Position numbers and translations under genes: made by a program
Shown here: one piece after another, positions 46,061 to 56,276 of the stretch
Position numbering within the stretch: the first letter of the stretch is position 1
Layout of the letters: each line of letters begins with the position of its first letter
The notes under the pieces: generated by a model
What the model was told of the DNA's origin: nothing
Database searches by the model: none
Seen by the model: the letters and a program-made list of their open reading frames with translations, nothing else
DNA from: Acidobacteriota bacterium
GTDB taxonomy: Bacteria > Acidobacteriota > Aminicenantia > Aminicenantales > Saccharicenantaceae
Reading direction: 5' to 3'
Length of the DNA: 64,000 bases
NCBI GenBank assembly: GCA_029569255.1
Contig: JAKQUO010000019.1
Coordinates: 273,175-337,174 of the forward strand

Positions 46061-46591
46061 TCAGCCGGCCCCGATCCGGCCGAGCCCGGCCTCGATCCTC
46101 CGCCGGAGCGCGGCGACCTCGGCGGGAGAGACGGCCCCGGTCCTCCCGCCTTTCCGCGTCCAACCGAAGACGACGCCGTTGCGGGCGTGCCGGTAGCGGA
46201 GGTCCACGCCGGGGTGTCCGAAAGCGAGGGCCAGCAGGGTTTCGGCGATCCGGGTCAAGGGCGGCCGGTCGACGTGGCTCAAGCGGAACCTGGCCGTGAT
46301 CCGGGCCCCCCGCCCCGGCGCCGATTCGAGGCGGATCCGCCCCCCGCTCTGGGCGGCGGTCTGGGCCAGGAGCGGCAGGCCGAGGCCGGTCCTCTTGCGG
46401 CCCGTCGTGAAGAAGGGATCGAAGGCCCGCCGCCGCTCCTCCCGCGTCATGCCCCGCCCGTTGTCGGTCACCCGGAGCGCCAGCAGGTCACGGGCGGAGT
46501 TCTCGTCGACGGCGATCGAGACCCGGGTCGCGCCGGCGGCGACCGCGTTCTCGACGATGTCGAGGATGTGGAGGGAGAGGTCTTCCATCAT
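46061..46591 (-). CDS. Histidine-kinase-type ATPase (HATPase_c) without phosphorylation domain
   Basis: A 176-residue stand-alone GHKL ATPase: N box LHILDIVENAVAAGATR, G1 VTDNGRGM, F-box DPFFTTGRKRTGLGLPLL, then RIRLESAPGRGARI. There is no dimerisation/His box, so it is not a normal sensor kinase. It overlaps the PHP gene by 4 bp and is the last gene of the hydrogenase block; similar small ATPases accompany sensory [FeFe]-hydrogenase genes in Thermotoga and Clostridia. A signalling role tied to H2 is inference. Confidence 0.82.
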   Translation of the reverse strand: MMEDLSLHILDIVENAVAAGATRVSIAVDENSARDLLALRVTDNGRGMTREERRRAFDPFFTTGRKRTGLGLPLLAQTAAQSGGRIRLESAPGRGARITARFRLSHVDRPPLTRIAETLLALAFGHPGVDLRYRHARNGVVFGWTRKGGRTGAVSPAEVAALRRRIEAGLGRIGAG

Positions 46592-47334
46592 GGCGGGAGG
46601 ACCTTCCGGCCGGCCCGGCCGGCCAGGGCCAGGCGGAGCTCCGCGAGAGTCGGGGCGGCCATGAGGAAGTCCGTCGCCGCCGCGCCGATCTCCTCGGGCC
46701 TGTGGGCGTCCGAAAAGCGGACGATCGCGAGGTCCGCCGCGACGCCGAAGGCCTCCCGGGCCGCGGCCGCGTCGGCCCGCGGCGAGACCTCGACGGCCTC
46801 GATCCCCAGGCCGGGCGGGATGAACCCGAGCTGGGAGACGAGGCTGAAGGCCTCGCGGTCGATGTGGCTGGCGACGGCCAGGCCCCCGAAGGCGCGGATC
46901 AGGTCGACGGCCTCCCGGGCCGCGAGCTCCGTTGCGCCGAACAGGCAGCGCGGGCTGAAGCCGACGACGCGGTCCTCCGCGTCGGCCAGGACCTGGTCCT
47001 TGATGAATTTCCGTTTCGACGGCGCTTGAGGGAGACGGAGGAAGACCTCGGCCTGGAACGGGGCGAGGTCGGCCCCGGCCTCGAACAGCCCGAGGATGTG
47101 GGCCTCCTCGGCCGTCGTCAGCTCGATGCCCGGCAGGACCGCGGGCCCGGCGCCCGCGGCCGCCCGGGCGACCGCGGCGGCGTTCTCCGTCGTGTTGTGG
47201 TCGGTCACGGCGATGAGGTCGAGCCCGGCCGCCCGGGCCGCCTCGACGACGGCCCGCGGCGACATGGCCAGCTCGCCGCAGGGGGAGAGACAGGTGTGGA
47301 TGTGGAGGTCGGCCCGGAGGCGCCGGAGCTCCAT
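46588..47334 (-). CDS. PHP-domain phosphoesterase
   Basis: A 248-residue PHP protein with metal-binding ADLHIHTCLSPCGE, AVTDHNTTENA, PGIELTTAEEAHILG and VASHIDR and SDAHRPEE. Stand-alone PHP proteins are phosphoesterases, often with trinuclear metal sites. ATG 47334 overlaps the preceding DRTGG-like gene as ATGA. In other anaerobes a PHP protein is a regular neighbour of [FeFe]-hydrogenase-like sensors; its substrate is unknown and may be a nucleotide or a phosphorylated protein. Confidence 0.88.
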   Translation of the reverse strand: MELRRLRADLHIHTCLSPCGELAMSPRAVVEAARAAGLDLIAVTDHNTTENAAAVARAAAGAGPAVLPGIELTTAEEAHILGLFEAGADLAPFQAEVFLRLPQAPSKRKFIKDQVLADAEDRVVGFSPRCLFGATELAAREAVDLIRAFGGLAVASHIDREAFSLVSQLGFIPPGLGIEAVEVSPRADAAAAREAFGVAADLAIVRFSDAHRPEEIGAAATDFLMAAPTLAELRLALAGRAGRKVLPP

Positions 47335-47675
47335 CAACCCCCCCGGAGGCCCATCCCGTAAAGCCTGCCGCAGAGCTCGAAGGTCCCCGTCTCCGCGCCC
47401 AGGAGCGGGACCTTCTCCCGCTCCGCCCGGGCCAGCGCCTCGGGCGCCGGCCGCCGGCCGCCGACGAGGACGACGGCGGCCAGCTCCTTGAGGACGGCCA
47501 CGGCGACGATGTTCGGATGGACCTGCATGGTCACCCAGAGGGCGTCCTTGCGGGCGTGGCCGATGACGTCCGAGAGGAGGTCGCTCGCGTAGCCGCAGCC
47601 GACGGGCCGGCCGAGGGGGAGGCCGGGCGTGAAGACGGTGAGCTCGAGGCGCGCGGCGAGATCGGCGAGGGTCAT
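47334..47675 (-). CDS. DRTGG-domain-like small protein, copy A
   Basis: A 113-residue protein, ATG 47675 overlapping the [FeFe]-hydrogenase-like gene stop by 4 bp. Its pattern GCGYASDLLSDVIGHARKDA, then AVAVLKELAAVVLVGGRRP and EKVPLLGAETGTFELCGRL, fits the DRTGG fold, an accessory domain found with CBS and phosphotransacetylase-type proteins. It is clearly paralogous to the gene at 49445-49801 (both have ASDL.SDV, LAAVV.V.G.RP and PLL). Likely binds a small molecule or nucleotide in the hydrogenase signalling module; function not known. Confidence 0.75.
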   Translation of the reverse strand: MTLADLAARLELTVFTPGLPLGRPVGCGYASDLLSDVIGHARKDALWVTMQVHPNIVAVAVLKELAAVVLVGGRRPAPEALARAEREKVPLLGAETGTFELCGRLYGMGLRGG

Positions 47676-49015
47676 CTCTTCTCCTCCTTCTTCTCCTTCG
47701 GTTTTCGGGCGGGCGCGGCCCCGGCCGGCGGGGCCGCCGCTTCCGCGGGCGCGACGAACGGGCAATCCTCGAGGCGGGCGAGGCCGCGGGCGATGTCGTC
47801 GGCCAGGGTCCGGCAATCGGGCGCGCCGCAGACCCCGCAGTCCCTGCGGGGCAGCCGGGCGAACATCGCTTCCCTGAGCCGGGCCTTGCGGATGGCCCGG
47901 ACGGGGTCGGGATCGAGGGGCCGCGGCTCGGCGGGCTCGACGGGATGGCCGAACGACAGGAAGTCCCGGTGATACAGCCGGAGGGCGTCTTCCTGGTCCA
48001 CGACCGCCTGGTCGCCGGTGTCGGCCAGGAGCTTCAGGATGCGGCTCTTGGCCAGGAAGCGGTTCTCGACCGCGAGCGGCCCGCCGACGCAGCCGTCGGG
48101 GCAGACCATGCACTCGAGCAGGTCGATGTCCTGGAGCAGGCCGGCCTCGACCTCGTCGAGGACCCGCATGGTGTCCCGGATGCCCGAGACGGCCACGGCC
48201 CGGTGGTTCTTGAGCCCGCGGGCCTCGCCGCCGCTGAGGGGCCAGCCCATGCCGACCCCGCTGAAGAGCGCCGTGGAGAAGAAGTGGCCCGCCGGGGCGT
48301 CCTCGCCGCCCTGGCGCAGGGCCTGGCGGACCTGCGGGAAGATGTCCCGGACGGAGATGGCGCCGTCGAGATAGGAGCGGGCCAGCGAGGCCGGGCTGTT
48401 GATGGAGACCATCTTGGCCGGGCAGGGGGTGATGTGGACGATCCCGATCCTCCCGGAAGGAAGGCCCAGGGACTCGGGCAAGCGGGTCCGCAGGATCTTG
48501 GCCGCGATCTCCCGCGGCGGTTCGATGGGCAGGATCTGCCCGCAGAGCGCGGGGTAGCGGCGCTGGATGAGGCGGACGACGACGGGGCAGGTCGAGGTGA
48601 TGAACGGCCGGGGCCGGGGATGCTCGTTGAGGTATTCCCCGGTCGCGGCGGTGTTGAGCTCGGAGACGGCGCTGACGTCGTAGGCCTCGTCGAAGCCGGC
48701 CCGGCGCAGGGCCGAGAGGATCTCGTGCGGCGTGGCGGGCGGGCCGAACTGGCAGTAGACGACCGTCGAGGGGATGGCCACCTTGTAGTCGAAGGCCTCC
48801 AGGGCGTCGAACGAGGTCGTCCGGGAATGGATGGCGCCGTAGGGGCAGACGCGCAGGCACTCGGCGCAGTCGATGCAGAGACTGTCGATGATGCGGGCCT
48901 TGCCGTCGACGACCCGGATGGCCCGGGTCGGGCAGGCCTGCATGCAGTGGACGCAGCCGATGCACTTGTCCCGGACGATGTGGATGGAGTGGAAGGTCCG
49001 CCCGGGCGCGGTCAT
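47672..49015 (-). CDS. [FeFe]-hydrogenase-like protein (putative H2 sensor), degenerate H-cluster site
   Basis: A 447-residue protein: two ferredoxin-type [4Fe-4S] motifs (CIGCVHCMQACP, CIDCAECLRVCP), an [FeFe]-hydrogenase large-subunit C-domain, then an Fe-S domain with CGVCGAPDC near residue 390 and a charged Lys/Glu tail. H-cluster motifs are recognisable but altered: TSCCP reads TSTCP, MPCxxK reads TPCPAK, and MACPGGCxxGG reads MVCPDGCVGG. Such proteins, also known in Thermotoga next to hydABC, are thought to sense rather than turn over H2. It overlaps both neighbours by 4 bp, within a block of small ATPases, DRTGG-like and PHP genes. Confidence 0.85.
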   Translation of the reverse strand: MTAPGRTFHSIHIVRDKCIGCVHCMQACPTRAIRVVDGKARIIDSLCIDCAECLRVCPYGAIHSRTTSFDALEAFDYKVAIPSTVVYCQFGPPATPHEILSALRRAGFDEAYDVSAVSELNTAATGEYLNEHPRPRPFITSTCPVVVRLIQRRYPALCGQILPIEPPREIAAKILRTRLPESLGLPSGRIGIVHITPCPAKMVSINSPASLARSYLDGAISVRDIFPQVRQALRQGGEDAPAGHFFSTALFSGVGMGWPLSGGEARGLKNHRAVAVSGIRDTMRVLDEVEAGLLQDIDLLECMVCPDGCVGGPLAVENRFLAKSRILKLLADTGDQAVVDQEDALRLYHRDFLSFGHPVEPAEPRPLDPDPVRAIRKARLREAMFARLPRRDCGVCGAPDCRTLADDIARGLARLEDCPFVAPAEAAAPPAGAAPARKPKEKKEEKR

Positions 49016-49458
49016 GGCGCGCGTCCGTCCGGCCGGATGGCGATGTCGAGCCGGGTCCCGCGGCCGACCTCCGTGTCGATGTCGAAGGCGTCGGCGTTCC
49101 TCCGGATGTTCGGCAGGCCCATGCCGGCCCCGAACCCGAGCTCGCGCATCTCGGCCGTGGCCGTCGAGAAGCCCTCGGACAGGGCCATCCCGACGTCGGG
49201 GATGCCCGGGCCGCGGTCGTCCACCGTGAGGCGGACCTCGCCGGGGGTGACGGTCAGGTCCAGGCGGGCCTCCCGGGCGTACATGATGACGTTCATCTCG
49301 GCCTCGTAGGAGACGATGGCCGTCCGGCGGATGGTCGCCGCGTCGAACCCGAGCTCCTTGAGCAGCTCCTTGATCTCGCAGGCCGCGGCCCCGGCCTTGG
49401 CGAAGTCCCCGCCCCTGACGAGGAACCAGCGGCGGTAGGCGGGCTCAGCGTCCCGCAT
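49012..49458 (-). CDS. RsbW-like ATPase (anti-sigma/serine kinase type)
   Basis: A 148-residue GHKL ATPase of the RsbW/SpoIIAB type: helix ACEIKELLKELGFDAATIRR, N-box SYEAEMNVIMYAR, G1 VDDRGPGIPD, G2 LGFGAGMGLPNI, and GRGTRLDI. It is distinct from the second ATPase at 46061. RsbW proteins phosphorylate a partner on Ser and bind sigma factors; here the partner is unknown, as no anti-anti-sigma gene is in the window. It overlaps the [FeFe]-like gene (4 bp) and the DRTGG-like gene (14 bp). Confidence 0.88.
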   Translation of the reverse strand: MRDAEPAYRRWFLVRGGDFAKAGAAACEIKELLKELGFDAATIRRTAIVSYEAEMNVIMYAREARLDLTVTPGEVRLTVDDRGPGIPDVGMALSEGFSTATAEMRELGFGAGMGLPNIRRNADAFDIDTEVGRGTRLDIAIRPDGRAP

Positions 49459-49801
49459 GGCCGCCGTCCTCGATGAACCGGGCGATCCTCGAACAGGCCT
49501 CGAACATGCTCAGCTTCGTGGCCAGGAGGGGGAGGCCGCGCGACAGGGCCTGGGCGACGACGCCGGGGTCCGGGCGCTTGCCCTGGACGAAAACGACCGC
49601 GGCCAGGTCGGCGACGGAGCAGGCGCTGACGACGTGGGCGTTGGCCAGGCCCGTGAGGAGGAGCGACCCGGCCTCGGCCGAGGCCAGGACGTCGCTCATG
49701 AGGTCGGAGGCGAAGACGCCGCGGCAGGGCGCCTCGGGGGACGCCTTCGGGGTCAGCAGCTCGGCCTCGAGAAGGGCGAGAACGTCCTTGAGAACGATCA
49801 T
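49445..49801 (-). CDS. DRTGG-domain-like small protein, copy B
   Basis: A 118-residue paralogue of copy A: GVFASDLMSDVLASAEAGSL, then VADLAAVVFVQGKRPDP and LPLLATKLSMFEACSRIARF. ATG 49801 has GGGAGG upstream. It begins a run of genes to 46061 joined by overlaps, with a 78-bp gap to the [2Fe-2S] gene upstream. Two copies flanking the RsbW-like ATPase and [FeFe]-like sensor suggest a heterodimer or two related ligand sensors; inference only. Confidence 0.75.
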   Translation of the reverse strand: MIVLKDVLALLEAELLTPKASPEAPCRGVFASDLMSDVLASAEAGSLLLTGLANAHVVSACSVADLAAVVFVQGKRPDPGVVAQALSRGLPLLATKLSMFEACSRIARFIEDGGHAGR

Positions 49802-49879: not shown

Positions 49880-50272
49880 TCAGCCCATCGTCTCGCTGCC
49901 GACGGCCAGGACGTGGTCGGCCACCATCTTCCCGCCCAGGACGTGCTTGGCGAAGATCTCCCGCATCTTGGCCGGGGTGAGGCCGCCGTACTTGACCGGG
50001 GGCCGGCCGGCGAGCTCGACGGTGGCCATGGGCTCCTTGTTGCAGAGCCCGGCGCAGCCGGAGGTCGTCACGACGACGTCCGTGACCCCGGACCGGCCGA
50101 TCTCGTCGAGCAGGGCGGTCATGATCTCGCGGGCCCCGGCGGCGATGCCGCAGGTGCCCATGTGCACGGTCACCCGGGCCCGGCCTTGCCCCTCCCGGAC
50201 GGTCATCCGGGACCTGGCGGCCTCCCGGATCCTGGCCAGGTCCTGGACGCGCAGCTTCTTTCGCTCGGCCAT
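49880..50272 (-). CDS. Thioredoxin-like [2Fe-2S] ferredoxin (NuoE/HydB N-domain type)
   Basis: A 130-residue protein with the thioredoxin-like ferredoxin fold: RVTVHMGTCGIAAGAREIM and TTSGCAGLCNKEPMATVEL. Three cysteines fit the expected cluster loop, with the fourth position unclear; similar 'GTCGIAAGA' sequences occur at the N-terminus of HydB-type NADH-hydrogenase subunits. It probably carries electrons to or from the Hox diaphorase or the [FeFe]-like sensor. ATG 50272; 21 bp after hypA. Confidence 0.85.
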   Translation of the reverse strand: MAERKKLRVQDLARIREAARSRMTVREGQGRARVTVHMGTCGIAAGAREIMTALLDEIGRSGVTDVVVTTSGCAGLCNKEPMATVELAGRPPVKYGGLTPAKMREIFAKHVLGGKMVADHVLAVGSETMG

Positions 50273-50293: not shown

Positions 50294-50638
50294 TCAGGCC
50301 TCGAGGTCGATCTTTTCGATGACGAGCTCGCGGCCGGCGACGATCTCGACCCGGCGCGAGCCGCAGGCGGCGCAGGAGAAATCGGCCTCCTCGCGGACGG
50401 CCCCGCCGCCGCAGTCCGGGCAGCGGACCTTGACGGGAACGGCCGCGATCTCGAGGCGGGCCTCCTCGGCGATCGTCCCTTTCTTGTAGGAGTCGAACGC
50501 CGACACGAGGAGGTCGGGGACGACCCCGGACATGACCCCGACCGAGAGGACGACCCGCGTCACCCGGCGCGCGCCGTGCTCCCGGGCCTTCTCCTCGAGG
50601 ACCTCGAAGGCGGAGGCGACGAGGGAGAGCTCATGCAC
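50294..50638 (-). CDS. hypA: Hydrogenase nickel-incorporation protein HypA
   Basis: A 114-residue HypA that delivers Ni to the [NiFe] site together with HypB. The Ni-binding N-terminus MHELSL is exact, with the zinc-ribbon CPDC (about residue 74) and CAAC (about 91). It overlaps hypB by 8 bp. No hypCDEF are in the window. Confidence 0.96.
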   Translation of the reverse strand: MHELSLVASAFEVLEEKAREHGARRVTRVVLSVGVMSGVVPDLLVSAFDSYKKGTIAEEARLEIAAVPVKVRCPDCGGGAVREEADFSCAACGSRRVEIVAGRELVIEKIDLEA

Positions 50639-51302
50639 GGCCGGACCTCAGGCGGTCGAGGGATGCGACGAGGAAGCCGGCCACGCCGTCGACCCCCTCG
50701 CCCCGGAGGGCCGAAACGGTGAAGATCTCGAGGCCGGGCTTGATGGCCAGGGCCTCGGCCCGGGCCCGCTCCGGGTCGAACGGCAGGTGCGGCGCGAGGT
50801 CGGCCTTGGTCAGGATGACCGCGTCGGCCGAAAGGAAGGCGGCCGGGTATTTGGCCGGCTTGTCGTCGCCCTCGGGCGCCGAGAGCAGGACGAAGCGGAG
50901 GTCCTCGCCGAGATCGTAGGAGGCCGGGCAGACGAGGTTGCCGACGTTCTCGATGAACAGGAAATCGATGTCCGCCGGGACCTCGCCGATGACCTTGCCG
51001 ATCATGCGGGCCTCGAGGTGGCAGGCCCCGCCGGTCGTGATCTGCCAGGCGGGGACGCCCTTGCGGCGGATGCGCTCGGCGTCCCGCTCGGTCTCGACGT
51101 CGCCCTCGATGACGGCCATCCGGTGGCGCCCGCGGAAGAGGTCGGCCAGGGCCTCGAGGAGCGCCGTCTTGCCCGAGCCCGGCGAGCTCAGCAGGTTGAC
51201 GCCGAGGATGCCGCGCCGCCGGAGCTCGGCCCGGATGGCCTCCGCGGCCTGCTTGTTCGTGGCCAGGAGGTCCCTGGCGACGGTGAGCGTCTTCACGGTC
51301 AC
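50631..51302 (-). CDS. hypB: Hydrogenase nickel-incorporation GTPase HypB
   Basis: A 223-residue HypB: P-loop SSPGSGKTALLE, metal site TGGACHLEARMI (Cys and His), FIENVGNLVCPASYDLGED, and TKADLAPHLPFD for guanine. It lacks the His-rich N-terminal nickel store of some HypB. GTG start 51302 overlaps the protease stop (GTGA). Confidence 0.96.
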   Translation of the reverse strand: MTVKTLTVARDLLATNKQAAEAIRAELRRRGILGVNLLSSPGSGKTALLEALADLFRGRHRMAVIEGDVETERDAERIRRKGVPAWQITTGGACHLEARMIGKVIGEVPADIDFLFIENVGNLVCPASYDLGEDLRFVLLSAPEGDDKPAKYPAAFLSADAVILTKADLAPHLPFDPERARAEALAIKPGLEIFTVSALRGEGVDGVAGFLVASLDRLRSGRA

Positions 51303-51763
51303 GATCGGGCCTCCTTCAGGAACGAGACCAGGAACTCCAGGGCCGCGGCCAGGTCCCTCTCGGCCCGCGCCGTGAGCCCCTCGCCGACCGCGAAGCTGTG
51401 GCCGCGGACGGCCAGGAGCCGGGCCTTCGGGCGCTTGCCGGTGAGCCCGGCGGCGACGGCCAGGACCTGGGCCGGGCCCAGGGCGTGGCTCAGGGCCGGC
51501 ACGGCCGGGTCGGGCTCGACCGGCTCGAAGGTGAACGGCCGGCCCAGCCGGCGGGCGGCGTCGACGAAGACGACGGTGTCGTGGCCGGCGCAGTCCAGGG
51601 CGTCCTCGACGTTGAGCTGGTAGTTGGCGTCGCAGGCGACGCCGGGGAGGCGGAGCTTTTCCAGGCGCTCGACGAGAGAGCCCCCCAGGCCGTCGTCGCG
51701 GCGGCCGGGGTTGCCGATGCCCAGGACGAGGACCGACGGCCGTTCGCGGCGCCGCGCGGTCAG
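51299..51763 (-). CDS. [NiFe]-hydrogenase maturation protease, CTG start
   Basis: A 154-residue endopeptidase of the HyaD/HybD/HoxW type that trims the large subunit C-terminus after Ni insertion. The translation from CTG 51763 reads LTARRRERPSVLVLGIGNPG, then RRDDGLGGSLVERL with an Asp metal ligand, DTVVFVDAARR, and LSHALGPAQVLAVA with the His ligand. All of these precede the first ordinary start codon, so a start at GTG 51502 would remove every nickel ligand but the His. No ATG, GTG or TTG lies in frame upstream before the hydrogenase-gene overlap; CTG overlaps the hoxH stop (CTGA) and has AGAGGAAAG about seven bases upstream. Confidence 0.82.
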   Translation of the reverse strand: MTARRRERPSVLVLGIGNPGRRDDGLGGSLVERLEKLRLPGVACDANYQLNVEDALDCAGHDTVVFVDAARRLGRPFTFEPVEPDPAVPALSHALGPAQVLAVAAGLTGKRPKARLLAVRGHSFAVGEGLTARAERDLAAALEFLVSFLKEARS

Positions 51764-53208
51764 CGGACTTTCCTCTGGAGGACCCGGCCGCCCGGGCCGA
51801 CGAGCGTGACCTCGAGCGGCATCCGGCCCAGGGCGTGGGTGGCGCAGCTCAGGCAGGGATCGTAGGCCCGGATGGCCACCTCGACGCGGTTGAGCATGCC
51901 CTCCGTGATCTCGGGCTTCTCCGACAGCGTGTTCACGGCCACCCAGTGGACGGCCCGGTTCATGGGCTCGTTGTTGTTGGTCGTCGAGACGATGAGGTTG
52001 GCCATGGTGATCTGGTCGTTGCCGTCGACGCGGTAGTGGTGGAAGAGCGTCCCCCGCGGGGCCTCGACGAGGCCGACCCCCTCCGGGGCCCGGCGGCCCT
52101 TCTCGACCAGCCTCGGGCCCTGGAGGTCCTTGTCGAGCAGGAGCTCCTTGACGACCTCGGCGGCGTGGAGGAGCTCGATGAGCCGGGCCCAGTGGGTGTG
52201 GAGGGACATGTTGTTGGGCTTGCCGTCGGTGTAGGCCTTGTAGGCCTCGAACTCCTTCTGGGCCAGGGGCGAGGGGATGTAGTCGCAGGTGTTCAGCCGG
52301 GCCAGGGGCCCGACGCGGTACCAGCCGTCCGCCTTGCCGAGCGAGCGGAGGTAGGGGAACTTCATGTAGCTCCAGGTCCGGACCTCCTCGCCGATGTGGT
52401 CGAGGTAGTCCCGGTAATCGACGTCGTCGAGGACCTTGCGGCCCTCGGCGTCGACGGCCCGGAGGACGCCGTGGTAGAAGTCGAGCGCCCCGTCCTTGCG
52501 GACGAGGCTGAGGTGGTTGGAGGGGAAGGCGGCGAAGCCGTCGACGACGTCTTTGTTCTTCCGCTGGTAGTCCTTGAACAGCTCGACGCCGGCCAGCGCC
52601 CAGTCGATGGCCAGGCCGGCGTTCACGGCCGCGGCCCCGTCGAGGAGGCGGTCGCGGTCCTCGGGGGCGAGGCCCTTGTTGACGCCCCCGGGGATGGCGC
52701 CGGTGCCGTGGATCTTCTTGCCGGCCGTGGCCAGGATGACCTCCTGGCCGAACTTGCGCAGGAGGACGGCCCGCGTCGCCAGGTCCTTGTCGAGGGCGAT
52801 GAGGCCGATGACGTTCCGGACGGCCGGGTCGGCGTCCATGCCCAGCAGGAAGTCGGGGGCCGAGAGATGGAAGAAGTGCAGGGCGTGCGACTGGAGCATC
52901 TGGCCGTAGTGCATCAGCCGGCGCACCTTCTCGGCCGTGGCCGTGAGCTTCCCCGGCCCGGCGCCGACGACGACGTCCATGGCCTTGGCCGCCGCCAGGT
53001 GGTGGCTGACCGGGCAGATGCCGCAGAGCCGCTGGACGAGCACGGGGGCCTCCCAGTAGGGGCGGCCCTGGACGAAGCGCTCGAAGCCGCGGAACTCGAC
53101 GATGTGGAAGCGGGACTGGGTCACCCGGCCGGCGTCGTCGAGGCGGATGGTGACCTTGCCGTGTCCTTCGATCCGGGTGACGGGCTCGATGGTGATCTTT
53201 CTACCCAT
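51760..53208 (-). CDS. hoxH: [NiFe]-hydrogenase large subunit, HoxH type (group 3)
   Basis: A 482-residue catalytic subunit that splits or forms H2. N-terminal ligands Cys62 and Cys65 in RLCGICPVSHH, C-terminal ligands Cys452 and Cys455 in DPCLSCATH. The 24 residues after His458 are the tail removed by the maturation protease, whose gene is next. RIEGHGKVTI at residues 12-21 is typical. With hoxEF, hoxU and hoxY directly upstream this is a group 3d-like NAD-linked soluble hydrogenase; it has no signal peptide. Confidence 0.94.
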   Translation of the reverse strand: MGRKITIEPVTRIEGHGKVTIRLDDAGRVTQSRFHIVEFRGFERFVQGRPYWEAPVLVQRLCGICPVSHHLAAAKAMDVVVGAGPGKLTATAEKVRRLMHYGQMLQSHALHFFHLSAPDFLLGMDADPAVRNVIGLIALDKDLATRAVLLRKFGQEVILATAGKKIHGTGAIPGGVNKGLAPEDRDRLLDGAAAVNAGLAIDWALAGVELFKDYQRKNKDVVDGFAAFPSNHLSLVRKDGALDFYHGVLRAVDAEGRKVLDDVDYRDYLDHIGEEVRTWSYMKFPYLRSLGKADGWYRVGPLARLNTCDYIPSPLAQKEFEAYKAYTDGKPNNMSLHTHWARLIELLHAAEVVKELLLDKDLQGPRLVEKGRRAPEGVGLVEAPRGTLFHHYRVDGNDQITMANLIVSTTNNNEPMNRAVHWVAVNTLSEKPEITEGMLNRVEVAIRAYDPCLSCATHALGRMPLEVTLVGPGGRVLQRKVR

Positions 53209-53221
53209 TGCGGTTCACCCT

Positions 53222-53767
53222 TCAGTCGAATTTTATCAGATCGTAGGCCAGGTTGAGCGGCCGCCCCTCGATGATGGCCGTCAGGGCCTCCCAGATGAGG
53301 TCGGCCGAGGGCGGGCAGCCCGGCAGGAAGCAGTCGATCTTGACGACCTCGTGGCAGGGATAGACCTTGTCCAGGATGACCGGCAGGTCCTCGTCGTTGG
53401 GGATGACGCGCTCTCCGGGGTCGACCGTGGGCGAGTTGAGGTAGGCCTCCTCGAGGCACTCCTTGAGGGGGATGCTGTTGCGCAGGGCGGGCAGGCCGCC
53501 CATGACGGCGCACTCGCCGAGGGAGACGAGGACCCGGCAGTTCTTGCGGAAGTCGCGCAGGACCGCGACGTTCTCGCTGTTGCTGCAGCCGCCCTCGATG
53601 AGGCCGATGTCGGCGGGCTTGGTGAACCGCTTGATGTCGTCGATCGGCGACTTGTTGAACTCGACGAGCTCGACGAGCCGGAGGATGCGCTCGTCGATGT
53701 CGAGGATGGACATGTGGCAGCCGAAGCAGCCGGCGAGCGAAGCGGTGGCGATGACGGGTTTGCCCAT
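53222..53767 (-). CDS. hoxY: [NiFe]-hydrogenase small subunit, HoxY type
   Basis: A 181-residue small subunit carrying the proximal [4Fe-4S] cluster. Ligands are seen in GCFGCHMS, GECAVMGG and FLPGCPPS. The short form without a second domain or twin-arginine signal fits cytoplasmic group 3 enzymes. ATG 53767 lies 3 bp after hoxU and its stop 13 bp before hoxH. Confidence 0.93.
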   Translation of the reverse strand: MGKPVIATASLAGCFGCHMSILDIDERILRLVELVEFNKSPIDDIKRFTKPADIGLIEGGCSNSENVAVLRDFRKNCRVLVSLGECAVMGGLPALRNSIPLKECLEEAYLNSPTVDPGERVIPNDEDLPVILDKVYPCHEVVKIDCFLPGCPPSADLIWEALTAIIEGRPLNLAYDLIKFD

Positions 53768-53770
53768 GGC

Positions 53771-54475
53771 CTACCTCCCGGCGCCTTTCTCGACGTCGCT
53801 GCCGATGGGCGCCCCGTCGTACTTGCGCTTCCCGATGGGGACGGCGAAGCCGGTCTCCTTGCGCAGGATGGCGCCCACCGGGCAGATGTCCATGGCCCGG
53901 CGGGCCTCCGCGTCGGAGAGGCCCGCGGCCAGCCTCTGGTCGATCTCGATGGTCACGCGGGGGCCCCGCTCGACGGCGGCGAAGACCTTCCGGCCGTCCT
54001 TGGCCCGGATGCCGCGGACGCACCGGAGGCACTGGATGCAGCGGTTCCGTTCGAGCATGAGGCGGGGGGCCCGGGCGTCGAGGGCCCGGCCGGGCCAGAG
54101 GTAGGGGAACCGCGGGACCATCATCCGGTAGCGGTAGGCCAGGGCCTGGAGCTCGCAATTGCCGCTCTTCTCGCAGGACGGGCAGAAGTGGTTCCCCTCG
54201 ACGAAGAGCATCTCGATGAGGGACTTGCGCATGTCCTCGAGGTCGGGGGCCGTGTTCTCGACGGCCATCCCCTCGGTCACCGGCTGGGTGCAGGCGGCCA
54301 TGTACCGGCCGGCGACGCGGACCGTGCAGATCCGGCAGCTGCCCACGGGCTTGAGCCCTTCGTAATGGCAAAGGACGGGGATCCAGACGCCGTTGGCCTT
54401 GGCCGCCTCGACGATCGTCTGGCCCGCCCGGGCGACGCAGGGCCGGCCGTCGATGGTGAAGCGTATCTCACTCAT
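53771..54475 (-). CDS. hoxU: Hydrogenase diaphorase subunit HoxU (NuoG N-terminal type)
   Basis: A 234-residue electron-transfer subunit: [2Fe-2S] ferredoxin domain (CHYEGLKPVGSCRICTV), the His-Cys [4Fe-4S] motif HFCPSCEKSGNCELQ, and a ferredoxin-like [4Fe-4S] motif CIQCLRCVRG with a later CPVGAI. It bridges the diaphorase HoxF and hydrogenase HoxY. Overlaps hoxEF by 8 bp. Confidence 0.93.
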   Translation of the reverse strand: MSEIRFTIDGRPCVARAGQTIVEAAKANGVWIPVLCHYEGLKPVGSCRICTVRVAGRYMAACTQPVTEGMAVENTAPDLEDMRKSLIEMLFVEGNHFCPSCEKSGNCELQALAYRYRMMVPRFPYLWPGRALDARAPRLMLERNRCIQCLRCVRGIRAKDGRKVFAAVERGPRVTIEIDQRLAAGLSDAEARRAMDICPVGAILRKETGFAVPIGKRKYDGAPIGSDVEKGAGR

Positions 54476-56276
54476 GGAGGGACTCCTTGCACTCCGGCCG
54501 GCGGCCGGCCGCCTCGCAGCCGGTCCGGAGGGCGGCCTCGAGGTCGAATTCGGGGACGAAGTCCTCGCCCTTGCGGACCTTGGCCGCGTAGAGCTCGGGG
54601 AAGCTCTTCATGGTCGTCAGGATGGGATTGGGCGAGGTCTGGCCCAGCCCGCACCGGCTCGTGGCCTTGACCAGCTTGCCCCAGGCCTCGAGGTCGCGGA
54701 GGTCGGCCTCGGTGCCGAGCCCCCGGACGACCTTCTCGAGCTTTTTTTTGAGCAGGACGTTGCCGGCCCGGCAGGGGACGCACCAGCCGCAGGACTCCTC
54801 GACGAAGAAGTCCATGAAGTTCCCGACGATCTCGAAGATGTCGCGCTCCGGGCCGAAGACGATGACCGAGCCGCCCGTGGCCAGGTCGGAGAAGCAGATC
54901 TTCCGGCCGAACCCGTCCTGGGCCACGCACGTTCCGGAGGGCCCGCCGACCTGGACGGCCTTGGCCCCGGCGCCGCCGGCCATCTCCAGGAGCGCGGCGA
55001 GGGTCAGGCCGTACTCGACCTCGTAGACCCCGGGCCGGCCGCAGTCGCCGGAAACGCTCAGGAGCTTGGTCCCCGCCGACTGGGGCGTGCCCATGGCCTT
55101 GAACCAGGCCGCGCCCTCGACGAGGATGCGGGCCGCGGTGGCCAGGGTCTCGACGTTGTTGACGGTCGTGGGCAGGTTCCGGTAGCCGCTCGAGACCGGG
55201 AAAGGCGGCCGGTCGCGCGGCTCGCCCCGCTTGCCCTCGGCCGACTCGAGAAGGGCCGATTCCTCGCCGCAGATATAGGCCCCGGCGCCCGACTTGATGA
55301 CGATGTCGAAGGAGAAGCCCTCGGAGCCGGCCGCGGCCCGGCCGAGGAGGCCGTCCTGCCGCATCGCCTCCAGGGCGGCCTCGAGGTGGGCCCGGAGATA
55401 GGCGTATTCCGAGCGGAGGTAGAGGACGCCCGTCCGGGCCCCGACGGCGTAGCCGGCCACGGCCATGCCCTCGAAGAGGAGGCGGGGGAGCTCCGTCAGG
55501 ATGACCCTGTCCTTGAACGTCCCGGGCTCGCCCTCGTCGGCGTTGCAGACGACGAAGCGCTCGACGGCCTTTTCGCGGCGGCAGAACTCCCACTTGAGGC
55601 CCGTCGGGAAGCCGGCCCCGCCCCGCCCGAGGAGGCCCGCCCTCTTGATCTCCTCGATGACCTTCTCGGGGGTCGTGCCGACGGCCTTGCGCAGGGCGGC
55701 GCCGCTCTCGTGGGCGCCGAAGAGGACCGGCCCTCGCTCGCGGATGTTGTTGGCGACCATGGCCCGGACGAGCTCCGACTGGTTGGCCCCGTCGCCGAGC
55801 TCGGCGACCTGGCTCGCGGCCGGCCGCCCCTCGCGGAGGCCCCGGACGAGGGCCCGGGCGCTCTCGGGGGTGAGGCGGGTGAAGACGACGCCGTCGACGA
55901 TGGCCGACGGCTCCTGGTCGTTCATGCCGATGCAGGAGGTCGGGAACAGGCCGATCCGGCCGTCGCCGGAGACCCGGCCGAAGGCGCAGCCGGCCTCGTC
56001 CTCGAAGGCCTTGGCGACGGCCGCGCGCCCCTTCATCCGCGACGTGATGGAGTCGTTGAGATAGACGGTCGACGCGCCGCGGGGGTCGGCCGAGAAGAAG
56101 TGGTAGAAGGTGACCGCGCCGCGGACCTCGGCCTCGGAGAGCTTGAGATGGGCGGCGATGCGGGCCACGGCCTCGTCGGGGACGTGGCCGAAGGCGGCCT
56201 GGACGTCGCGGACGACGTCCAGGAGGGCCGCCGGGTCCTTGGGATGCCGGTGAACGATGTCCTTCGCTTTGGCCAT
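54468..56276 (-). CDS. hoxF: Hydrogenase diaphorase HoxE-HoxF fusion (NuoE + NuoF type)
   Basis: A 602-residue flavoprotein oxidising NAD(P)H or reducing NAD(P)+. Residues 1-150 are NuoE-like, then a NuoF-like core: LLGRGGAGFPTG, NADEGEPGTFKDR (FMN/NAD sites), SGAGAYICGEESALLESAEG, and ESCGWCVPCR with a later TSRCGLGQ for the N3-type [4Fe-4S] cluster. In the NuoE part only two cysteines remain (GCAFG, and TSCIGMND where a Cys is usual in place of Asn), so its [2Fe-2S] cluster is probably absent. First gene of the hox operon. Confidence 0.92.
   Translation of the reverse strand: MAKAKDIVHRHPKDPAALLDVVRDVQAAFGHVPDEAVARIAAHLKLSEAEVRGAVTFYHFFSADPRGASTVYLNDSITSRMKGRAAVAKAFEDEAGCAFGRVSGDGRIGLFPTSCIGMNDQEPSAIVDGVVFTRLTPESARALVRGLREGRPAASQVAELGDGANQSELVRAMVANNIRERGPVLFGAHESGAALRKAVGTTPEKVIEEIKRAGLLGRGGAGFPTGLKWEFCRREKAVERFVVCNADEGEPGTFKDRVILTELPRLLFEGMAVAGYAVGARTGVLYLRSEYAYLRAHLEAALEAMRQDGLLGRAAAGSEGFSFDIVIKSGAGAYICGEESALLESAEGKRGEPRDRPPFPVSSGYRNLPTTVNNVETLATAARILVEGAAWFKAMGTPQSAGTKLLSVSGDCGRPGVYEVEYGLTLAALLEMAGGAGAKAVQVGGPSGTCVAQDGFGRKICFSDLATGGSVIVFGPERDIFEIVGNFMDFFVEESCGWCVPCRAGNVLLKKKLEKVVRGLGTEADLRDLEAWGKLVKATSRCGLGQTSPNPILTTMKSFPELYAAKVRKGEDFVPEFDLEAALRTGCEAAGRRPECKESLHE

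Follow-up and report, generated by a model that had tools for sequence, protein, structure and literature searches.

The 64,000-nucleotide stretch of DNA analysed here (the window) carries six intact minus-strand genes at positions 46061-49801, which overlap their neighbours by 14, 4, 4, 4 and 4 bp. These overlaps bear out the initial annotation, which had read the six genes as one translational unit. In order of transcription, the genes encode a DRTGG protein (DRTGG1), an RsbW-like ATPase, an [FeFe]-hydrogenase-like protein, a further DRTGG protein (DRTGG2), a PHP protein and a HATPase_c protein. A gene for a thioredoxin-like [2Fe-2S] protein lies 78 bp upstream of the set, followed by genes of a [NiFe] hydrogenase and its maturation.

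49445-49801, minus strand: DRTGG1, upstream of the RsbW-like gene (Pfam PF07085, conservation, AlphaFold model)
49012-49458, minus strand: RsbW/SpoIIAB-like GHKL ATPase, putative serine kinase (Pfam HATPase_c_2, NCBIfam spIIAB, PDB)
47672-49015, minus strand: group D (M2e)-type [FeFe]-hydrogenase-like iron-sulfur protein, 447 aa (Pfam, motifs, AF2 model, tree)
47334-47675, minus strand: DRTGG2, after the [FeFe]-like gene (Pfam PF07085, conservation)
46588-47337, minus strand: PHP-family metallo-phosphoesterase (Pfam PHP and PHP_C, conservation, PDB)
46061-46591, minus strand: HATPase_c protein without a DHp domain (Pfam, conservation)
49880-50272, minus strand: thioredoxin-like [2Fe-2S] protein, recurrent seventh member of the cassette
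50294-51302, minus strand: hypA and hypB, [NiFe] maturation
51760-56276, minus strand: hoxH, hoxY, hoxU and hoxEF, NAD-linked [NiFe] hydrogenase

The nearest solved structures to HoxH are those of an NAD-reducing enzyme (5xf9) and a [NiFe] hydrogenase (7t2r), and the adjacent Hox enzyme is most likely the client of the cassette in the window. Between hoxH and hypB (51299-51760) lies a frame for a HybD-like hydrogenase maturation protease that has no ATG, GTG or TTG start in its N-terminal part, and an unusual start codon is likely. In three genus-mates (L046-L048), genes for NuoE, a NuoF-GltD protein and a HoxU-like protein are found between the cassette and hypAB, with an additional glutamate-synthase-like gene in L046. 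Only the [2Fe-2S] gene is left of this stretch in the window.

Both DRTGG families contain an invariant Asp and Ser in an SDxxSD motif (D33 and S36 in DRTGG1; D32 and S35 in DRTGG2, where T49 is also invariant). The AlphaFold model of DRTGG1 folded alone (pLDDT 94.8) has 2ioj and the CBS-DRTGG region of the C. perfringens pyrophosphatase (3l31/3l2b) as its nearest matches, followed by HPr kinase; as modelled, DRTGG1 is a nucleotide-binding DRTGG fold. In the RsbW-like ATPase, the N, G1 and G2 boxes are intact, with invariant E52, N56, D81xGxGI and GFGAGMGLPN. Its best PDB match is anti-sigma F (1tid/1th8), and its NCBIfam spIIAB score of 34 bits is under the 135-bit equivalog cut-off. DRTGG1 and RsbW are fused in six loci (in L110 also according to Pfam), which fall in one clade and represent one event. 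The PHP protein has a complete set of metal ligands (HxH, DH, E, H and SDAH), of which D10, H12, H14, D46, H47, E72, H80, H158, D210 and H212 are 97-100% conserved, and its best PDB matches are the phosphoesterases 7ug9 and 3e0f.

The [FeFe]-like protein and its missing maturases

The [FeFe]-like protein consists of an Fe_hyd_lg_C domain and a C-terminal FeS domain (Pfam). It contains two N-terminal [4Fe-4S] motifs and a C-terminal Cx2Cx4Cx16C cluster motif (C393-C396-C401-C418), and Pfam detects no PAS domain. The AlphaFold (AF2) model shows an [FeFe] hydrogenase fold (pLDDT 91.6) with group A [FeFe] hydrogenases as best PDB matches. In a tree of 107 rows, 102 group D rows, including that of Thermoanaerobacter L133, are set apart from group C with a support of 100. 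Judged by its sequence, from the tree position, the Cx2Cx4Cx16C motif, a Thr for Met353 and the lack of both Cys299 and a PAS domain, the protein is a member of group D (M2e). In many [NiFe]-partnered relatives (L049, L051, L053-L055, L058 and others), Arg takes the place of C21, which is the second cysteine in the first of the two N-terminal [4Fe-4S] motifs.

The initial annotation regarded the H-cluster motifs ITSTCP, TPCPAK and ECMVCPDGCVGG as altered. The motif sequences are as it gave them, but all four ligand cysteines (C143, C198, C305 and C309) are kept, as is K201, the equivalent of the CN-binding Lys358, so that the motifs are near the usual group D ones and do not indicate a broken site. 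A degenerate H-cluster motif was rejected on the same grounds. T196 replaces Met353, and T142 stands in place of the proton-transfer Cys. The fold and the sequence relation would be compatible with an ordinary catalytic [FeFe] hydrogenase, an assignment that T142, the group D position and the maturase data below allow us practically to discount.

No [NiFe]-partnered member has lost K201 or any of the four cysteines. Among members associated with formate dehydrogenase (FDH), the Lys is lost in some and kept in half, and C305 is lost in two; in L067 and L068 it is replaced by His although their genomes contain HydG. A link between K201 loss and HydG was rejected, as FDH-type members have lost the Lys both where HydG is present and where it is absent, and a link with the FDH client is incomplete, as half of these members retain the Lys. 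In two relatives a TGA codon was considered as selenocysteine, but the frames end there and ordinary stops are likelier. The CxGGC motif, which holds the bridging Cys, has Asp in place of its first Gly (Gly307) in the window protein. Gly307 is lost in 37 of the 40 sequences of a clade (support 100) that comprises all [NiFe]- and FDH-partnered members and is kept in 52 of the 62 sequences outside it; all 34 catalytic HydA proteins have CPGGC. In these sequences, the loss of Gly307 appears to correlate with a loss of diiron binding, which is no proof of it.

The host genome is a 2.74-Mb draft, 94% complete, in which we found no HydG, no HydF above the cut-off and no other [FeFe] protein. With HydG and HydF absent, the diiron site cannot be made by the known route in this host. 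Homologues of the [FeFe]-like protein were collected from 247 genomes of the phylum and by a scan of GTDB genomes. HydG and HydF are both absent from all 16 genomes of the phylum set that have group D as their only [FeFe] protein, and in the GTDB set full-length HydG is found in 0 of 16 such genomes, one of which contains a fragment. HydG is present in 35 of the 39 phylum genomes with other [FeFe] types (p = 1.6e-10) and in 26 of 34 in the GTDB set (p = 5e-6, with the fragment counted as present); the p-values assume independent genomes, an assumption that relatedness among them violates, and one genome belongs to both sets. As HydG was missed in 8 of these 34 other-type GTDB genomes, single absences are weak evidence. 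False negatives as a general explanation are countered by the phylum set, where genomes at least 90% complete contain HydG in 33 of 34 other-type cases against 0 of 16 with group D only, and HydF agrees.

The initial annotation proposed that the protein senses H2. This finds no support in the present host, because its genome lacks HydG, HydF and other [FeFe] proteins. For the protein to be a genuine H2 sensor whose H-cluster is complete, its diiron subsite would have to come from an unknown route independent of HydG and HydF. The retained cysteines and Lys358 equivalent speak for such a sensor, as does TamHydS, the group D protein of Thermoanaerobacter mathranii and the one relative that has been characterised. 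Its apoprotein was produced in E. coli and artificially matured by means of a synthetic diiron complex (PMC8163306, PMC13104023), whereupon it turns over H2 (PMC8163306). The absence of both maturases from every group-D-only genome of the phylum, the loss of Gly307 and the occasional loss of the Lys and of C305 argue against it.

Client enzymes and exchange of the input

The cassette recurs widely and in several phyla. Among 69 loci with enough flanking sequence, DRTGG1 is present in 66, RsbW in 66, DRTGG2 in 65, PHP in 49 and HATPase in 45, far more often than chance would allow. The separation of the genes in relatives, which the initial annotation had named as refuting its proposal, was seen in part: the [FeFe] gene is sometimes absent, and in four loci (L170, L171, L174 and L175) PHP and HATPase form a pair without the rest of the cassette nearby and with varied neighbours.

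The client enzyme is exchanged between lineages. In Firmicutes the order is DRTGG1-RsbW-FeFe-DRTGG2-PHP-hydC-HATPase-2Fe2S-hydB-hydA, for example in Thermoanaerobacter wiegelii (L133), which supports the statement in the initial annotation that related genes elsewhere adjoin a catalytic [FeFe] enzyme. The neighbours in Aminicenantes, Ignavibacteria and Chlorobi are NuoE/F, an HdrA-like protein and a [NiFe] hydrogenase (L049, L083, L084). NuoE/F with formate dehydrogenase is found in L052, L064, L090 and L092, and Rnf in L093, L139, L143, L200, L201 and L202; the Firmicutes Rnf loci have the cassette either immediately in front of rnfCD(GEAB) or a few kilobases upstream of it. The [NiFe] Hox neighbour noted at the outset is real and not unusual, as 20 of 105 tabulated relatives have a [NiFe] neighbour. 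These client families have in common that they couple ferredoxin to NAD(H). With HydABC, HdrA/[NiFe], FDH and Rnf as clients, the common theme is ferredoxin/NAD(H)-coupling enzymes and not H2. One contig labelled Clostridiales (L089) carries an Aminicenantes-like cassette and [NiFe] operon and is either misbinned or transferred.

Client choice also bears on H2 sensing. Of the hydrogenase-partnered loci counted, all 37 contain PHP and 36 contain HATPase, while PHP is missing from all 11 with an FDH partner. This speaks for an H2 sensor, but many members serve FDH or Rnf. On balance we regard a complete, H2-binding H-cluster in these proteins as unlikely.

The position of the Firmicutes HATPase gene between hydC and hydB homologues could alternatively point to a module that assembles or repairs iron-sulfur flavoprotein complexes of the NuoEF type, with the GHKL ATPases as chaperones. 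The HATPase protein HydE of Acetobacterium woodii, which is no part of the active enzyme, 'may be involved in assembly or signalling' (PMC3315566). This reading is decidedly improbable given that CBS and DRTGG are nucleotide-sensing regulatory domains and that Rnf clients contain no NuoE. HydABC and Hox enzymes have, moreover, been purified in active form without the cassette.

In a number of otherwise similar cassettes the [FeFe] gene is missing, and in its place the RsbW-like ATPase carries a CBS pair as an N-terminal fusion. This is seen in five loci of the present phylum:

L167, 8131-9102: CBS-RsbW fusion
L169, 1536-2459: CBS-RsbW fusion
L172, 9249-10163: CBS-RsbW fusion
L176, 1694-2608: CBS-RsbW fusion
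L177, 1463-2368: CBS-RsbW fusion

The same replacement occurs in Firmicutes (L199, L201, L202 and L203), where the HydABC operon of L203 contains the CBS form in place of HydS. L200 and L204 have both inputs, CBS-RsbW and the [FeFe] protein, and L168 has neither. A group D protein is absent genome-wide from G132, G101, G062, G070, G081, G091, G385, G411 and G444. At the level of gene content, the exchange with a CBS pair points to an exchangeable signal input, and it is the strongest evidence for a signalling role. It also weighs against the idea that the hydrogenase has additional electron-transfer subunits in the [FeFe]-like and [2Fe-2S] proteins, with the ATPases incidental. Such subunits would fit the N- and C-terminal cluster motifs and the co-transcription with NuoE/NuoF. 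The idea is nevertheless highly unlikely, since a CBS pair can stand in for the [FeFe]-like protein, which accompanies RsbW in 66 of 69 loci regardless of the client and is found also beside Rnf.

A putative control circuit and its closest relatives

We consider it somewhat probable that the six genes form a regulatory cassette for enzymes coupling ferredoxin, NAD(H), H2 or formate, with an iron-sulfur input in this organism. The hub would be the RsbW-like ATPase, which we infer to phosphorylate the DRTGG proteins in the manner of SpoIIAB-type serine kinases, with the invariant Ser36/Ser35 of the SDxxSD motif as candidate phosphate acceptor. The DRTGG domains may report the adenine-nucleotide state, and the PHP protein would reverse the modification. 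Output to the client enzyme could run through the second HATPase, a counterpart of A. woodii HydE. The [FeFe]-like protein would serve as redox input. In this lineage it most likely holds [4Fe-4S] clusters only, including a bare H-domain cubane, and may read ferredoxin-level reduction rather than bind H2; in other lineages this input would be swapped for, or combined with, the CBS pair fused to the ATPase. Of the H2-responsive phospho-signalling proposed in the initial annotation, the regulatory role is supported by the kinase-like ATPases, the CBS domain replacing or joining the [FeFe] protein and the DRTGG-RsbW fusions. The H2 response is not supported in this host.

Some observations stand against this regulatory reading. 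The main one is the conservation of K201 and the four cysteines in [NiFe]-partnered members, which is unexpected if nothing H2-related is bound and would allow for a cofactor that binds H2 and is produced in an unknown way. TamHydS, moreover, accepts its synthetic diiron complex, and the DRTGG-RsbW fusions count as a single event. Somewhat more tentatively, and at a little under even chances, we suggest that a widespread, undescribed cassette of a GHKL hub, two DRTGG proteins, PHP and a second ATPase controls ferredoxin/NAD(H)-coupling enzymes through interchangeable inputs, either a CBS pair or the [FeFe] fold, the latter being a diiron-free redox sensor in many lineages.

Group D proteins have been called putative H2 sensors, and a common cofactor of the [FeFe] groups has been assumed from the conservation of HydEFG (PMC8163306). 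A hydrogenase-like protein in a genome without the known active-site machinery casts doubt on the assumed sensor role. Here, lineages keep the protein and its signalling partners while the maturases are missing, which makes the question of what HydS senses directly testable. The swapped sensor, together with Rnf, formate dehydrogenase and [NiFe] clients, suggests that anaerobes, among them organisms used for biofuels, have a general circuit that controls their main electron-coupling enzymes. The proximity of group D proteins to kinases and bifurcating hydrogenases has been noted before (PMC3561251). We found no literature on group D proteins without maturases, most subscription papers being outside the search, and nothing relevant that connects DRTGG to hydrogenase or Rnf. 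Nor did we find a description of the lineages without maturases, of the CBS replacement or of Rnf, FDH and [NiFe] enzymes as clients, all of which appear to be new.

The closest known proteins are the putative group D sensors TamHydS (PMC8163306, PMC13104023) and Cthe_0335 (PMC3561251), which have the same domain plan, the Cx2Cx4Cx16C motif, Thr or Ser for Met353, neither Cys299 nor PAS, and ATPase neighbours. In EPR, the C-terminal cluster of TamHydS is unresponsive to H2 (PMC13104023). The window protein differs from both in its host genome without HydG and HydF, the Asp for the first Gly of CxGGC and the [NiFe] Hox client. Group C (M2f) sensory hydrogenases (TmHydS, HfsB) have a related H-domain and C-terminal FeS domain, but contain a PAS domain, and the sampled group C genomes mostly have HydG. 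Two genomes with group C-like [FeFe] proteins (L072 in G022 and L074 in G035; 93% and 80% complete) are without detectable HydG.

The A. woodii hydCEBDA operon contains HydE among its hydrogenase genes, not as an enzyme subunit, and the window HATPase_c protein fits the same description (PMC3315566). In contrast to the cassette, no DRTGG, group D [FeFe] or PHP gene is part of the operon as described. SpoIIAB/RsbW anti-sigma serine kinases share the GHKL signature and ATP-binding motifs with the hub ATPase, but there is no sigma factor or STAS partner in the window operon or in recurrent positions of its relatives, where DRTGG proteins are found instead. The CBS-DRTGG region of the C. perfringens family II pyrophosphatase has the same DRTGG fold accompanied by CBS, as in the variant cassettes, whereas here the DRTGG domains are separate small proteins that would act with GHKL ATPases.
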